In this document: positions 58,493-63,900 of the stretch, piece by piece
Position numbering within the stretch: position 1 is the first letter of the stretch
Layout of the letters: every line of letters starts with the position of its first letter
Assembly: GCA_008933805.1 (NCBI GenBank)
Contig: WBUH01000001.1
Span: 124,001 to 188,000, forward strand
DNA: 64,000 nucleotides
Direction: 5' to 3'
Origin: Bacteroidota bacterium
GTDB taxonomy: Bacteria > Bacteroidota > Bacteroidia > UBA8524
Notes under the pieces: generated by a model
The model's database searches: none
What the model was told of the DNA's origin: nothing
What the model saw: the letters and a program-made list of their open reading frames with translations, nothing else
Translations under genes and position numbers: made by a program

Positions 58493-59167
58493 ATGCCCGA
58501 TATCCTAAGCAGCAAAGTCCTTTCATTTTATCGGCAACTTCGTCCCGCTGATTTGCCCGAAGGGATAGTAGTAATGCTGCCTTTTACGGATGCTGAAACG
58601 TGGCGGGTTACTGAGACTTTCTACACCAAATACTACAACGATAACCTTCCCCGCGTATTTATTTTGGGTATCAATCCGGGTAGGTTTGGGGCCGGTGTTA
58701 CGGGCATTCCTTTTACTGACCCCATCCGTTTAGAGACCGATTGCGGCATACTCAACAGTTTTACCAAAAAACAAGAAATAAGCAGCGTGTTTGTGTACCA
58801 AATGATTAAAGCGTTTGGCGGGGCAGAGGCTTTTTACAGCAAGTTTTATATCAACTCGTTGTACCCGATGGCTCTTACTTTTAAGGGTAAAAATATTAAT
58901 TACTACGACACCCCTGCATTGTTAGCCGCAACCCGCCAACCCATCATCGAAAATGTACAAACACAAATAGGGTTTGGCCTGCGCACCGACATAGCCATTT
59001 GCTGGGGCGAAGGCAAGAACTACAACTATTTGCAGAAACTGAATGCTGAGTTTGGCTTTTTCAAAGAAGTGATACCCTTGCCGCACCCGCGTTTTATTGT
59101 GCAATACAAACGCAAACAAATGAACGAATATATAGAGCGGTATTTGGAGGTATTTGATAAGATATAG
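58493..59167 (+). CDS. SMUG2-like uracil-DNA glycosylase (DUF4918)
   Basis: A 224-residue protein with PRVFILGINPGRFGAGVTGIPF (active-site GINPG loop) and the C-terminal LPHPRFIVQYKR, which fit the SMUG2/DUF4918 branch of the uracil-DNA glycosylase superfamily. It would remove uracil or related bases from DNA. It overlaps the kptA upstream region and precedes kptA by 13 bp, so the two may be cotranscribed. Confidence 0.8.
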   Translation: MPDILSSKVLSFYRQLRPADLPEGIVVMLPFTDAETWRVTETFYTKYYNDNLPRVFILGINPGRFGAGVTGIPFTDPIRLETDCGILNSFTKKQEISSVFVYQMIKAFGGAEAFYSKFYINSLYPMALTFKGKNINYYDTPALLAATRQPIIENVQTQIGFGLRTDIAICWGEGKNYNYLQKLNAEFGFFKEVIPLPHPRFIVQYKRKQMNEYIERYLEVFDKI

Positions 59168-59180
59168 TATTATTGAGTTT

Positions 59181-59729
59181 ATGGATTACAAAAATCTAAG
59201 CAAAACCGTATCGATGGCGTTGCGCCATAGTCCTGAGAAGCTGGGATTAACCCTTTCTGCTGAGGGATGGGTAACGGTTGAAGAGTTAATTGCCGGATTA
59301 GCGCGGTTGGATGCAAAGTGGGACAAAGTTGCCTTGCAAGATTTAGAACAAATGGATGTCAATTCCGGCAAGCAGCGGTTTGAGATTGCCGACGGACGCA
59401 TAAGAGCCTTGTACGGCCACTCTACCCAAGATACCCAAATAACTTATGAGCCGGTTCAACCCCCGGCTTTGCTGTATCATGGTACTTCTCCTGAGGTGGC
59501 GCAACTGATACTGCAAGAGGGCATAAAGCCAATGTCTCGCCAATACGTTCACCTTTCAGATACCGTGCAGCTTGCCAAAATTGTCGGTTCGCGCAAGCAC
59601 AAAGCCCCGGTGGTCTTACAGTTGGATGCAACCACTGCCTCCGCCGATGGTATCAAGTTTTATCACGGAAACGATAATACATGGCTGGCAGATGCCATCT
59701 CTGCGAAGTATATCCGTGTAAACGATTAG
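59181..59729 (+). CDS. kptA: RNA 2'-phosphotransferase (Tpt1/KptA family)
   Basis: A 182-residue protein with LSKTVSMALRHSPEKLGLTL, LLYHGTSPEVAQLILQEGIKPM and YVHLSD, the Tpt1 signature Arg/His/Arg set. The enzyme removes 2'-phosphate from RNA using NAD+. In bacteria its substrate is unclear. I use ATG 59181; the longer form from 59154 overlaps the glycosylase gene. Confidence 0.93.
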   Translation: MDYKNLSKTVSMALRHSPEKLGLTLSAEGWVTVEELIAGLARLDAKWDKVALQDLEQMDVNSGKQRFEIADGRIRALYGHSTQDTQITYEPVQPPALLYHGTSPEVAQLILQEGIKPMSRQYVHLSDTVQLAKIVGSRKHKAPVVLQLDATTASADGIKFYHGNDNTWLADAISAKYIRVND

Positions 59730-60169: not shown

Positions 60170-60197
60170 ATATAGTTAGGATAACTAACTATATTTG
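60170..60197 (+). promoter_or_regulatory. Operator-promoter of protoglobin gene
   Basis: A perfect inverted repeat ATATAGTTAG-GATAA-CTAACTATAT (60170-60194) overlaps the -7 element TATATTTG (60190-60197), which is 22 bp ahead of the ATG. The core GTTAG-N5-CTAAC recurs upstream of the MarR-like gene. Confidence 0.75.
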
Positions 60198-60219
60198 CAG
60201 CATACATCAAATACAGAAT

Positions 60220-60801
60220 ATGCAAAACAACAACATTCACGGCTACACCTATGGTATGGTGCCCGATTCACCCGTTGACTTACACGACTTAGCGCTATTA
60301 AAAAAGACAGTTTTGTTTACCGATGAGGACGTTGTCCAACTAAAAAAAGCAGGAGAGATACTGCAAGACCAAACCGATGCAATTTTGGATGTTTGGTACG
60401 GATTTGTTGGAGCTAACCCGCATTTACTGGCTTACTTTTCACAGAACGGTAACCCCAATGCCGATTATTTGGCAAAAGTGCGTACCCGTTTCGGTAAATG
60501 GATTGACGATGTGTGCAATCGTCCTTACGACCAACAATGGCTTAATTATCAGCACGAAATTGCATTGCGCCATCACAGTTCAAAGAAAAACAAAACAGAT
60601 GGGGCAAGTGCTGCACCAATCATCCATTTCAGGTACATGGTAGCCTTTATTTTCCCCATTTCGGTTACCATCCGTCCGTTTTTGGCTGCAAAGGGGCACA
60701 GCGAGGTTGAGGTTCAGCAAATGGCTGCGGCATGGTTTAAGGCAATTACCCTCACAGTGATTTTGTGGTGCTATCCTTACGTTAGGGACGGCGAGTTTTA
60801 A
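60220..60801 (+). CDS. Protoglobin
   Basis: A 193-residue heme protein of the protoglobin class: LLKKTVLFTDEDVVQLKKAGEILQ, then LDVWYGFVGANPHLLAYFS and WLNYQHEIALRHH with the proximal His candidate. The C-terminal part PISVTIRPFLAAKGHSEVEV is typical. It has no linked enzymatic domain, so it would bind O2, NO or CO in the cytoplasm. The operator shared with the next gene suggests control by that MarR-like regulator. Confidence 0.9.
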   Translation: MQNNNIHGYTYGMVPDSPVDLHDLALLKKTVLFTDEDVVQLKKAGEILQDQTDAILDVWYGFVGANPHLLAYFSQNGNPNADYLAKVRTRFGKWIDDVCNRPYDQQWLNYQHEIALRHHSSKKNKTDGASAAPIIHFRYMVAFIFPISVTIRPFLAAKGHSEVEVQQMAAAWFKAITLTVILWCYPYVRDGEF

Positions 60802-60820
60802 TTTTTTTTTGTACCTAAAT

Positions 60821-60839
60821 GTTAGGATTGCTAACTTTG
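60821..60839 (+). promoter_or_regulatory. Operator-promoter of MarR-like gene
   Basis: GTTAG-GATTG-CTAAC (60821-60835) shares its arms and the GAT core with the protoglobin operator. It overlaps TAACTTTG (60832-60839), a -7 element of TAnnTTTG type. This suggests autoregulation. Confidence 0.65.
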
Positions 60840-60840
60840 T

Positions 60841-60867
60841 GTGCGGGGCTAATACCCCGCACTTTTT
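60841..60867 (+). terminator. Hairpin between promoter and MarR-like start
   Basis: An 8-bp stem GTGCGGGG/CCCCGCAC (60841-60848 with 60855-60862) is followed by five T. It lies inside the short 5' leader of the MarR-like gene, just ahead of the ATG, and could terminate protoglobin transcripts or attenuate the regulator. Confidence 0.6.
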
Positions 60868-60869
60868 GT

Positions 60870-61478
60870 ATGGAACCTTCAATATTTAATCCCGGCGAGC
60901 CTCATAAATCCGTTGAAAGCAAAATTGCAGTTTCGTTGGAGCGTGTTGCTGAGGCCATCAGGGTGTTGCTTTGGAATGAAGCAAAGGGACACGGATTAAC
61001 CCCCATACAGATGCAGTTGCTTATTTTTTTGGCTTTCCACCCTGAAAAACAACGAAAGGTGAGTTATTTGGCGCAAGAATTTAATCTTACCAAAGCCACT
61101 ATCAGCGATGCAGTTAAAATACTGCTTCAAAAGGGCTTGGTTATGAAGGCCGATGATTTAGCCGATTCACGGAGTTACTCACTTTACCTTACACCAAAAG
61201 GGGAGGAATTGGCGCGCACTACCTCGCATTTTGCCGACAGCTTGCAAGCACCTTTAGAGAAATTAACTGTTAGGCAAAAAGAAGTTTTTTATGAAGCCCT
61301 ACTTACGTTAATCCATACGTTAACTAAAAGCGGCATTATTACACACCAGCGAATGTGTTATACCTGCAGGTTTTACACCAAAAGTAAGGATGGTGCGTAT
61401 TGCAATCTTTTGCATAAGCCCTTGCCCGTGGAGGCTTTGCGGGTAGATTGTCCCGAACATGAACTTATAGCAAGATAA
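60870..61478 (+). CDS. MarR-like winged-helix regulator with C-terminal Cys cluster
   Basis: A 202-residue protein. The MarR-type winged helix contains LTPIQMQLLIFLAFHP, KVSYLAQEFNLTKATISDAVKILLQKGLV and the wing DLADSRSYSLYLTPKG. The C-terminal tail adds CYTCRFYTKSKDGAYC and DCPEHE, four Cys that can bind Zn or an Fe-S cluster. This suggests a redox or NO sensor. It is next to a protoglobin and shares a palindromic operator with it. Start at 60870, 8 bp after a hairpin. Confidence 0.82.
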   Translation: MEPSIFNPGEPHKSVESKIAVSLERVAEAIRVLLWNEAKGHGLTPIQMQLLIFLAFHPEKQRKVSYLAQEFNLTKATISDAVKILLQKGLVMKADDLADSRSYSLYLTPKGEELARTTSHFADSLQAPLEKLTVRQKEVFYEALLTLIHTLTKSGIITHQRMCYTCRFYTKSKDGAYCNLLHKPLPVEALRVDCPEHELIAR

Positions 61479-61530: not shown

Positions 61531-63900
61531 TTGGCAACAACAAAAAATATTCTGGCTTTTCTTTTTGCCCTGATCGGCTGGGCTGCAACGGCTCAAACGT
61601 ATTCAGTAAATGGTAAAGTTGTAGATGAAACAGGGGCTCCTGCTTTCGGGGTTTCGGTATATCTGCACGAAACCTTGCAAGGGGTAAGTACTGATACCAA
61701 CGGAAACTTCGCTATAAAAAATGTTAAACGCGGACGCTACCATTTGCACGTGCGCTTAGTGGGCTACAAAACCATTGAAGAGGATATTGAGGTGGGAGAC
61801 AGCCTTTTGCCGTCTTATCGTTTTCAATTAGTGCCCAGCAGTTTAGAGGTGAACGAGGTGGTGGTGGAGAGCAATGCTCTTAAACTCTCAAAAAAGGAAA
61901 GCAGTGTTGATTTGATTACGGTTGATGAAGGCTACCTGCAAAAAAACATGGGTACAACGCTGATGAACTCGTTGGATAATTTGCCCGGTATCAACAGTAT
62001 AAACATGGGAGTTGGGGTGGCAAAACCTGTAATAAGAGGGATGGCATTTAACCGCGTGGCTGTGGCCGATAACGGGGTGAAGCAAGAAGGCCAGCAATGG
62101 GGTGCCGACCACGGTTTAGAGATTGACCAGTTTAGTATCGACCAAATTGAGATTTTAAAAGGGCCCGCCTCATTAATTTACGGGTCGGATGCCATCGGCG
62201 GGGTGATCCATTTAAAACATCCGGTTAGCCCGCTGGAAGGAAAACATAGCGCAGGACTTCTTACCAACTACAAAAGTGTTAACCAAACCTACGGAATATC
62301 AGGGTATGCGCAAGGAAACCACAAAGGGTTGGTATATAGAGCAAGGGTGACGGCGTTGGGTTACGGAGATTACAAAGTACCCGCCGACAGCTTTACTTAC
62401 AATCGTTACCGTTTGCCCATTTATAACAATACCTTAAAAAACACGGCAGGCACCGAGCGGCACGTCGCCATGATGTTGGGCATCAACCGTAATTGGGGGT
62501 ATAGCCACCTTACGGTGAGTAACTATCACCAGCAAATTGGGGTGTTTAGCGGTGCATTGGGTATTCCCCGATCGTATCAGCTAACCTCGGATGGTAACAG
62601 CCGTAATATTGCGTTGCCCAATCAGCAAATCAACCATTTTAAGGTAATATCAAACAGTAATATCCGCTTAGGTCGTTCGTGGCTTGAAGCAGACTTGGGC
62701 TACCAATACAACCAACGCGATGAAAACTCTAATCCGCACAACCACGGGGTAGGGCCTGCGGTGAAGGGGAGTCTTGCCCATAGGTTGAAATTACAAACCT
62801 ATACCGCCAACCTTCGTTACCATGCAACTACCTTAAAAAGGTTTGACGGCGTGTACGGTATTAACACCAGTTACCAGCAAAACCGTTTTGAAGGGTATGA
62901 GTTTCTGTTACCTAATTTTACTAATTTCAGCATTGGCGGTTTTGCTATTGAAAAGTGGCGGGTGAATAAAGCGTTGGTTCTTAATGGAGGGTTAAGGTTT
63001 GATTATGGTCGGGTGGATATTAAGAGGCATTTGCAGCCCGTTTGGCAAAACGCCGATACCATTATCGGTTATGCACAACGTACACCAAACGTGAACCGGA
63101 ATTTTTACAGTTGGAGCGGAAGTGTAGGTGCTGCGTACAACCCAAATAAACATTGGAGTTTTAAATTCAATTTTGGTAAATCATTCCGGATGCCTACTCC
63201 GCAAGAGTTGAGCGTGAATGGGGTGCACCATGGGAGTTTCCGTCATGAAATGGGTGATTCAAGCCTGATGCCCGAAGCCGGCTACCAAACCGATTTGGGG
63301 ATTTCTGTTGAGAAGGAAAAGTTCTTAATTAGTGTTACTCCGTTTTTTAACTATTTCAGCAATTACATTTACTTGCGACCCACGGCTGAGTTTTCGACGT
63401 TGCCTGAAGGTGGACAGGTGTACCGCTTTACTCAAACCGAGGCAATTTATACAGGCGGCGAGGTGACGATAGAGTTTCATCCTGTAAAAACCCTGCATCT
63501 TTCTGTAACTGCCGACATGGTATATACTTATAATGTAAAAGAAGAATTGCCTCTGCCCTTTACCCCGCCACCGTCAATTAAACCTGAAATTGAATGGGAG
63601 TTTGACAACGTATTAAAGCGTTTTGAAAATGTGTTTGTGCGGGTAGGCTATAATTACACTTTTGCCCAAAACCGCACCGATAGGAATGAGTTGAATACGC
63701 CTTCTTATAGCTTGGTAAACATGGGGGCGGGTTTTGATGTAGTGTATAAAAAGAAAAAACGGCTAAGTGTGTCAGCATTGGTGCAAAACCTTGGTGATGC
63801 ACGATACCTTAACCACCTGAGCCGCTGGCGATACCTTAATTTACCAGAACCCGGCCGTAACTTTGTAATTACCGTTACTGTGCCCGTTTTGGATAAGTAA
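61531..63900 (+). CDS. TonB-dependent receptor with CarboxypepD_reg-like N-terminus (TTG start)
   Basis: A 789-residue outer-membrane receptor. A signal peptide ends TAQ near residue 22, a CarboxypepD_reg-like domain follows (VNGKVVDETGAPAFGVSVYL), then the plug (PGINSINMGVGVAKPVIRG, IEILKGPASLIYGSDAIGGV) and a 22-strand type barrel ending RNFVITVTVPVLDK. His-rich loops such as VNGVHHGSFRHEMGDS resemble metal receptors of the ZnuD type, so zinc or another metal uptake is possible. The start codon is TTG; no ATG fits. Confidence 0.88.
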   Translation: MATTKNILAFLFALIGWAATAQTYSVNGKVVDETGAPAFGVSVYLHETLQGVSTDTNGNFAIKNVKRGRYHLHVRLVGYKTIEEDIEVGDSLLPSYRFQLVPSSLEVNEVVVESNALKLSKKESSVDLITVDEGYLQKNMGTTLMNSLDNLPGINSINMGVGVAKPVIRGMAFNRVAVADNGVKQEGQQWGADHGLEIDQFSIDQIEILKGPASLIYGSDAIGGVIHLKHPVSPLEGKHSAGLLTNYKSVNQTYGISGYAQGNHKGLVYRARVTALGYGDYKVPADSFTYNRYRLPIYNNTLKNTAGTERHVAMMLGINRNWGYSHLTVSNYHQQIGVFSGALGIPRSYQLTSDGNSRNIALPNQQINHFKVISNSNIRLGRSWLEADLGYQYNQRDENSNPHNHGVGPAVKGSLAHRLKLQTYTANLRYHATTLKRFDGVYGINTSYQQNRFEGYEFLLPNFTNFSIGGFAIEKWRVNKALVLNGGLRFDYGRVDIKRHLQPVWQNADTIIGYAQRTPNVNRNFYSWSGSVGAAYNPNKHWSFKFNFGKSFRMPTPQELSVNGVHHGSFRHEMGDSSLMPEAGYQTDLGISVEKEKFLISVTPFFNYFSNYIYLRPTAEFSTLPEGGQVYRFTQTEAIYTGGEVTIEFHPVKTLHLSVTADMVYTYNVKEELPLPFTPPPSIKPEIEWEFDNVLKRFENVFVRVGYNYTFAQNRTDRNELNTPSYSLVNMGAGFDVVYKKKKRLSVSALVQNLGDARYLNHLSRWRYLNLPEPGRNFVITVTVPVLDK

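Follow-up and report, generated by a model that had tools for sequence, protein, structure and literature searches.

The window analysed here, a 64-kb stretch of DNA from a Bacteroidota bacterium, holds a protoglobin gene and a MarR-type regulator gene with the same palindromic element at their promoters, and comparison with relatives strongly supports a shared operator and autoregulation. We consider it probable that the regulator is an autoregulated local repressor whose centre of four cysteines (Cys4) is switched by nitric oxide (NO) or redox. At the level of sequence, the comparison brings out the operator, its position, its tie to the regulator, the invariance of the cysteines and a recurrent linkage to gas-reactive heme proteins.

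The protoglobin-regulator locus

The locus comprises the following elements.

60170..60194, no strand assigned: operator 1, with 10-bp perfect arms ATATAGTTAG and CTAACTATAT flanking GATAA; its core GTTAGGATAACTAAC is at 60175-60189
60190..60197, + strand: TATATTTG, probable -7 element for protoglobin, immediately 3' of the operator 1 core
60220..60801, + strand: protoglobin, 193 aa (PF11563, E 1.2e-29)
60808..60811, + strand: TTTG, probable -33 element for the regulator, from the sequence and the Bacteroidota consensus
60821..60835, no strand assigned: operator 2, GTTAGGATTGCTAAC; it overlaps the regulator's -7 element
60832..60839, + strand: TAACTTTG, probable -7 element for the regulator, overlapping operator 2
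60841..60867, + strand: GC-rich hairpin with a T-run (arms 60841-60848 and 60855-60862), which probably terminates the protoglobin transcript, abutting the regulator start
60870..61478, + strand: MarR-type regulator, 202 aa (PF12802, E 5e-12; structure model and Foldseek)
61356..61451, + strand: Cys4 tail, codons of C163, C166, C178 and C194

The protoglobin matches PF11563 with 103.8 bits (cut-off 25) and aligns with the Methanosarcina acetivorans protoglobin 2veb at E 1.4e-73; the WYG and RHH segments, which we take to be the B-helix Trp-Tyr and the proximal histidine, are identical in the alignment. A match of 46.2 bits to PF12802 (cut-off 27) identifies a MarR winged-helix domain in the regulator. 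The promoter consensus of Bacteroidota is TTTG...TAnnTTTG, and the TTTG of the regulator promoter (60808-60811) stands 20 nt upstream of TAACTTTG. Translation of the regulator most likely starts at 60870, since the mechanical open reading frame start at 60819 falls upstream of the predicted transcription start.

The initial annotation had placed GTTAG-N5-CTAAC at the promoters of both genes, and both palindromes are found where it put them. Site 2 overlaps the -7 element, and at site 1 the core is directly followed by it. The 25-bp element at 60170-60194, described as a perfect palindrome, has two perfect 10-bp arms, but its 5-bp centre GATAA is not self-complementary and the whole is therefore not one. 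Similarly, the arms of the proposed layout GTTAG-GATNN-CTAAC stand, but relatives indicate that the GA of GAT belongs to the half-site of GTTAGGA-N-TCCTAAC. Both window sites depart from this longer palindrome in the right half, by 2 and 1 mismatches.

GTTAGGANNNCTAAC occurs exactly twice in the window, and two copies were reached in none of 100 shuffles. A search of the rest of the genome, which the initial annotation had proposed, returned the two promoter sites without another clear promoter copy. Exact GTTAGN5CTAAC is present at four places in the whole 4.29-Mb genome, the other two being inside open reading frames, and with up to 2 mismatches from GTTAGGANTCCTAAC allowed there are six sites, fewer than the 13 of the reversed pattern. 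Taken alone, then, the motif shows no genome-wide enrichment, and location is what sets the two promoter sites apart. Three of the four further sites found with up to 2 mismatches are in open reading frames; the fourth (L087) lies between two divergent open reading frames, has no TAnnTTTG adjoining it, and may be a third target in the organism's own genome.

Just upstream of the module is a gene for an RNA 2'-phosphotransferase of the Tpt1/KptA family (59154-59729), and downstream of the regulator is one for a TonB-dependent receptor (61531-63900), which matches heme-receptor-like NCBIfam models below their cut-offs. A uracil-DNA-glycosylase-like protein gene also adjoins the module; none of these three families recurs at the other regulator loci compared. 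A GC-rich hairpin, often with a T-run, stands directly before the regulator start in 19 of 61 loci, compared with 9 of 205 control open reading frames (11 of 61 and 4 of 205, respectively, when the T-run is required), including the window (60841-60867), L058, L059, L069, L074, L078 and L136. It probably serves to terminate the upstream gene, right up against the regulator promoter, and possibly as an attenuator.

Operator and companion genes in relatives

We compared 61 loci, namely the window and 60 stretches of 4.7 to 14 kb around regulators (751 kb in total; G627 contributes two loci, and the regulators of L047 and L048 are identical). In the sequences upstream of the orthologues the full operator is the 15-bp palindrome GTTAGGANTCCTAAC, placed against or over TAnnTTTG. 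With up to 2 mismatches it has 85 sites in these loci and the reversed pattern 5; with up to 1 mismatch the counts are 53 and 0. Most of the sites (70 of 85) precede a cluster gene on the same strand by no more than 130 bp. TAnnTTTG begins right after the palindrome in 28 of these 70 promoter sites, the offset seen at window site 1, and at offset 11, with a four-base overlap, in 10, as at window site 2. The constant placement of the operator at the core promoters of the protoglobin and regulator genes agrees with repression and autoregulation. The initial annotation had named beforehand, as its refutation, absence of the motif from orthologous loci; instead, 46 of the 61 regulator loci carry a recognisable site. 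The 15 loci in which none was recognised weigh against our preferred reading.

The consensus came from the same loci as some of these counts, a dependence that the reversed-pattern and held-out tests counter only in part, and genome searches were therefore used as a test. Exact GTTAGGANTCCTNAC is found in 17 of 26 regulator genomes, a subset of the 45 other genomes of the class that have the regulator, and all 19 distinct sites are within 2 kb of the regulator. Among the 21 held-out genomes, which are all the new regulator genomes of the phylum draw, nine contain it, eight of them beside the regulator; 8 of the 11 held-out sites adjoin the regulator and the other three are inside open reading frames of G619. 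None of 36 genomes without the regulator has an exact copy (Fisher p 3e-5 for 9/21 against 0/36; this p-value and the one given below are optimistic, as related genomes are not independent). At the operator position in the near relatives L081 and L082 both half-sites have changed jointly, to GTTCGGAAGCCGAAC.

Internal operators, before DUF2024 or the regulator, form the middle of a longer inverted repeat in L045, L049, L051-L053 and L129. These repeats have GC-rich ends such as GCCCTGCAAA...TTTGCAGGGC and T's downstream, so that one element may be both operator and transcription terminator. In L075, and in L073, L074 and L077, DUF2024 is divergent from the protoglobin or thioredoxin-like gene, with a single operator between them.

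Within about 4.5 kb of the regulator in the 61 loci, the companions are a thioredoxin-like 77-aa protein (36 loci), DUF2024 (27), a secreted protein of about 245 aa (14), protoglobin (8), truncated globin (6) and cytochrome P460 (5). Eight loci have none of these six types, and 42 of the 61 have no globin or P460 within this distance, which also weighs against our preferred reading. In most loci the nearest companions are the thioredoxin-like protein, DUF2024 and the secreted protein, so that the protoglobin module is only one version of a wider system; we know of no established NO role for any of the three, a further point against our preferred reading. L061 encodes an iron-sulphur repair protein that scores over its cut-off (TIGR03652).

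The regulator is present in 46 of 395 genomes of the class and in 28 of 395 of the phylum draw. Protoglobin occurs in 12 of the 395 class genomes, and 10 of these 12 belong to the 46 regulator genomes (Fisher p 1e-8). In seven of the 12 (G000, G039, G158, G161, G183, G259 and G307) a single contig carries both genes, no more than about 2 kb apart; in G084 and G303 this is not so, and G324 is fragmented. No operator was found upstream of the protoglobins of G084, G161, G303 and G307, all of them regulator genomes, and this too counts against our preferred reading. On the regulator tree, labelled with earlier companion counts (truncated globin 7 instead of 6), the protoglobin label needs 8 changes for 8 rows, of which at least 3 are forced by well-supported branches. 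Shuffled labels need as many changes; the label is thus unclustered, and the pairing arose, or was lost, many times. PMC3772326 lists protoglobin and P460 among the genes induced in an ammonia oxidiser; PMC11218638 yielded nothing on protoglobin itself.

A protein search of plasmids returned 152 records, including Thermus, Phaeobacter, Enterobacter, Ensifer and Paraburkholderia, from which we took eleven stretches of eleven records, two of them without annotation. In Hymenobacter volaticus, genes for the secreted protein, a hexameric heme protein, protoglobin, DUF2024, a small hypothetical protein and the regulator stand in one row, adjoining a flavohemoprotein, an Rrf2 regulator and a catalase. 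P460 is paired with the regulator in Thermus thermophilus AA3-7 and HB27 and in T. oshimai, and in AA3-7 a nitrite reductase gene is 1.6 kb away. The protoglobin/regulator pair of Agarilytica is divergent, and in the Enterobacter record a thioredoxin-like gene belonging to the same family as before stands divergently. The secreted-protein family adjoins the regulator in Phaeobacter and Pararhizobium; in Pararhizobium there is also a truncated globin at a distance of 3 kb. On the Spirosoma plasmid (L164) the regulator is followed by a series of thiamine-synthesis (thi) genes.

Seven of the 11 plasmid loci (Spirosoma, T. thermophilus AA3-7, T. oshimai, Pararhizobium, Ensifer, Phaeobacter and Enterobacter) have palindromes of 7-1-7 form with a GA-N-TC centre close to the regulator or the partner gene, where 0.1 to 0.28 per locus are expected. 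Three of the 11 loci have no such palindrome, and the one in Paraburkholderia, 1.4 kb away, was taken as chance. The TAGGANTCCTA core is retained in the Thermus and Rhizobiales relatives. TAGTATCGA half-sites occur on the Enterobacter (L172) and Agarilytica (L173) plasmids, in Enterobacter as a 29-bp palindrome; their recurrence in both gammaproteobacterial loci suggests a shifted operator specificity.

The cysteine tail and the proposed switch

The initial annotation had noted four C-terminal cysteines in C-x2-C...C...C spacing, and this is borne out. The regulator has C163-x2-C166-x11-C178-x15-C194, C-x2-C-x(9-16)-C-x15-C is kept by all 38 aligned regulators, and all 11 plasmid loci have C-x2-C-x(10-16)-C-x15-C. 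The AlphaFold2 model of the regulator has a mean pLDDT of 90.6 and is confident in the tail at full length (block means 91 to 94 for residues 161-190); it contains no metal. Foldseek gave 251 matches at E <= 0.001, and the 50 listed are all MarR-type proteins. The stretch common to the regulator and the PDB relatives listed stops before the tail, which by itself had no PDB sequence match and, as a separate model (pLDDT 75.5), no fold match. A single-protein search of the genome contigs with the regulator returned only distant MarR proteins. Our search of the open-access literature found no paper on this regulator and no experiment on any member.

The spacing suggested a high-potential iron-sulphur protein (HiPIP, PF01355), which likewise has C-x2-C followed by two further cysteines. 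PF01355 was matched by 7 of 29 tails and by none of 58 shuffled tails, all below the cut-off (best score 19.3 bits, cut-off 22). None of 10 new, held-out tails matched, and the profile comparison was no better than column shuffles, 18 of 200 of which did as well; after the failed held-out test this idea was kept only as a lead.

We propose that a dimeric MarR-type repressor would bind GTTAGGA-N-TCCTAAC, of which the window has two slightly degenerate copies, and that, bound in the core promoters of the protoglobin gene and its own gene, it would block RNA polymerase. The four C-terminal cysteines would bind a metal, an iron-sulphur cluster being likelier than structural zinc. Once this centre had been damaged or modified by nitric oxide or a related redox stress, the repressor would release the DNA, and protoglobin, an NO/O2-reactive heme protein, would be produced along with further regulator. 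Relatives would use this switch to drive truncated globins, cytochrome P460, the thioredoxin-like protein, DUF2024 and the secreted protein. Here we infer DNA binding, repression rather than activation, the type of cluster and NO as the signal. The initial annotation had spoken of an autoregulated gas-sensing module; comparison upholds the shared operator and autoregulation, and the recurrence of globins and further NO-related genes beside the regulator is consistent with gas sensing.

Could the palindromes be chance, or general promoter features of this genome, and no operator at all? In the window, GTTAGN5CTAAC at up to 1 mismatch has 3 matches where 2.07 are expected, and the reversed pattern is even commoner genome-wide. 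With the exact operator in none of the regulator-free genomes and the sites of the 17 regulator genomes all beside the regulator, we regard this as extremely improbable; the held-out, regulator-free and reversed-pattern counts refute it. Activation is improbable on other grounds. The regulator would bind the promoter spacer, and its oxidised or nitrosylated centre would distort the DNA for polymerase in the manner of MerR or SoxR, which agrees with an operator core that lies in the spacer and abuts the -7 element at the fixed offset of the 28 promoter sites. However, in 10 of the 70 the palindrome overlaps the -7 element itself and would block polymerase, the Thermus site is about 10 nt before the P460 start codon, and MarR proteins are mostly repressors.

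Rather unlikely, in our judgement, though the main rival, is that the tail holds structural zinc, that a small organic ligand or an oxidant is sensed through the usual MarR pocket, and that protoglobin and the other companions serve in oxidative or electrophile stress. A ligand pocket is common in MarR proteins, and commonly used by them; thioredoxin-like, glutaredoxin-annotated, catalase and MOSC proteins are among the companions, and one of 10 new tails resembles a double zinc ribbon, at E 0.008 and below the cut-off. These points are set against a linkage that is repeatedly and specifically to gas-reactive heme proteins, a P460 unit that adjoins nitrite reductase in Thermus, and a second loop varying from x9 to x16, which would be unusual for a compact zinc ribbon.

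Returning to a repressor with an NO- or redox-responsive Cys4 centre, we tentatively suggest a broader reading. The regulator may represent an undescribed cross-phylum MarR family that has four cysteines in an Fe-S sensor tail and a conserved 7-1-7 operator (GA-N-TC centre) of its own, and may be the regulator so far missing for bacterial protoglobins and P460 proteins; DUF2024 and the 77-aa thioredoxin-like and secreted 245-aa proteins would then belong to a nitric oxide or related gas response. To our knowledge, bacterial protoglobins have no settled role. Their recurrent pairing with the regulator, with truncated globins or P460 instead in relatives, offers a concrete NO/gas-stress hypothesis and a testable regulon. 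The switch would also give DUF2024 and two unnamed families a physiological setting, and the compact operator predicts members across phyla.

Comparison with known systems

Autoregulation is typical of the MarR family, and the regulator shares with MepR, YusO and others the domain, the fold and a palindromic operator over the promoter; it differs in adding a C-terminal Cys4 extension of about 45 residues. CioR, a MarR protein tied to NO resistance, was set aside as a counterpart, being of the GbsR type with one cysteine. NsrR of the Rrf2 family represses NO-detoxification genes and has an Fe-S cluster that reacts with NO (see PMC11500311); it belongs to another family, the Rrf2 model scoring 14.3 bits on the window regulator (cut-off 30), and near the Hymenobacter and Thermus loci Rrf2 genes occur as separate genes.

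According to PMC6034842, SufR is a winged-helix autorepressor whose C-terminal cysteines ligate an Fe-S cluster and which represses suf genes through two binding sites, at the target and its own gene. The C-terminal cysteines and the sites at target and own gene recall the window system; SufR differs in its suf targets and in having three cysteines (203, 216 and 244 in Rv1460), where the window regulator has four. No SufR model was among the profile matches of the window proteins. ArnR of Corynebacterium, as set out in PMC12343034, is a MarR/ArsR-type winged-helix repressor with a C-terminal cysteine [4Fe-4S] sensor that releases DNA after reaction with NO and controls the globin gene hmp. The window regulator resembles it in protein type, C-terminal cysteines and a globin gene as proposed target; ArnR has three conserved cysteines in place of four, and the NCBIfam ArnR model scores 13.5 bits on the window regulator (cut-off 400). 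It is from these winged-helix repressors with C-terminal cysteine-bound clusters, ArnR and SufR, that we propose a cluster-based NO or redox switch for the protoglobin regulator.
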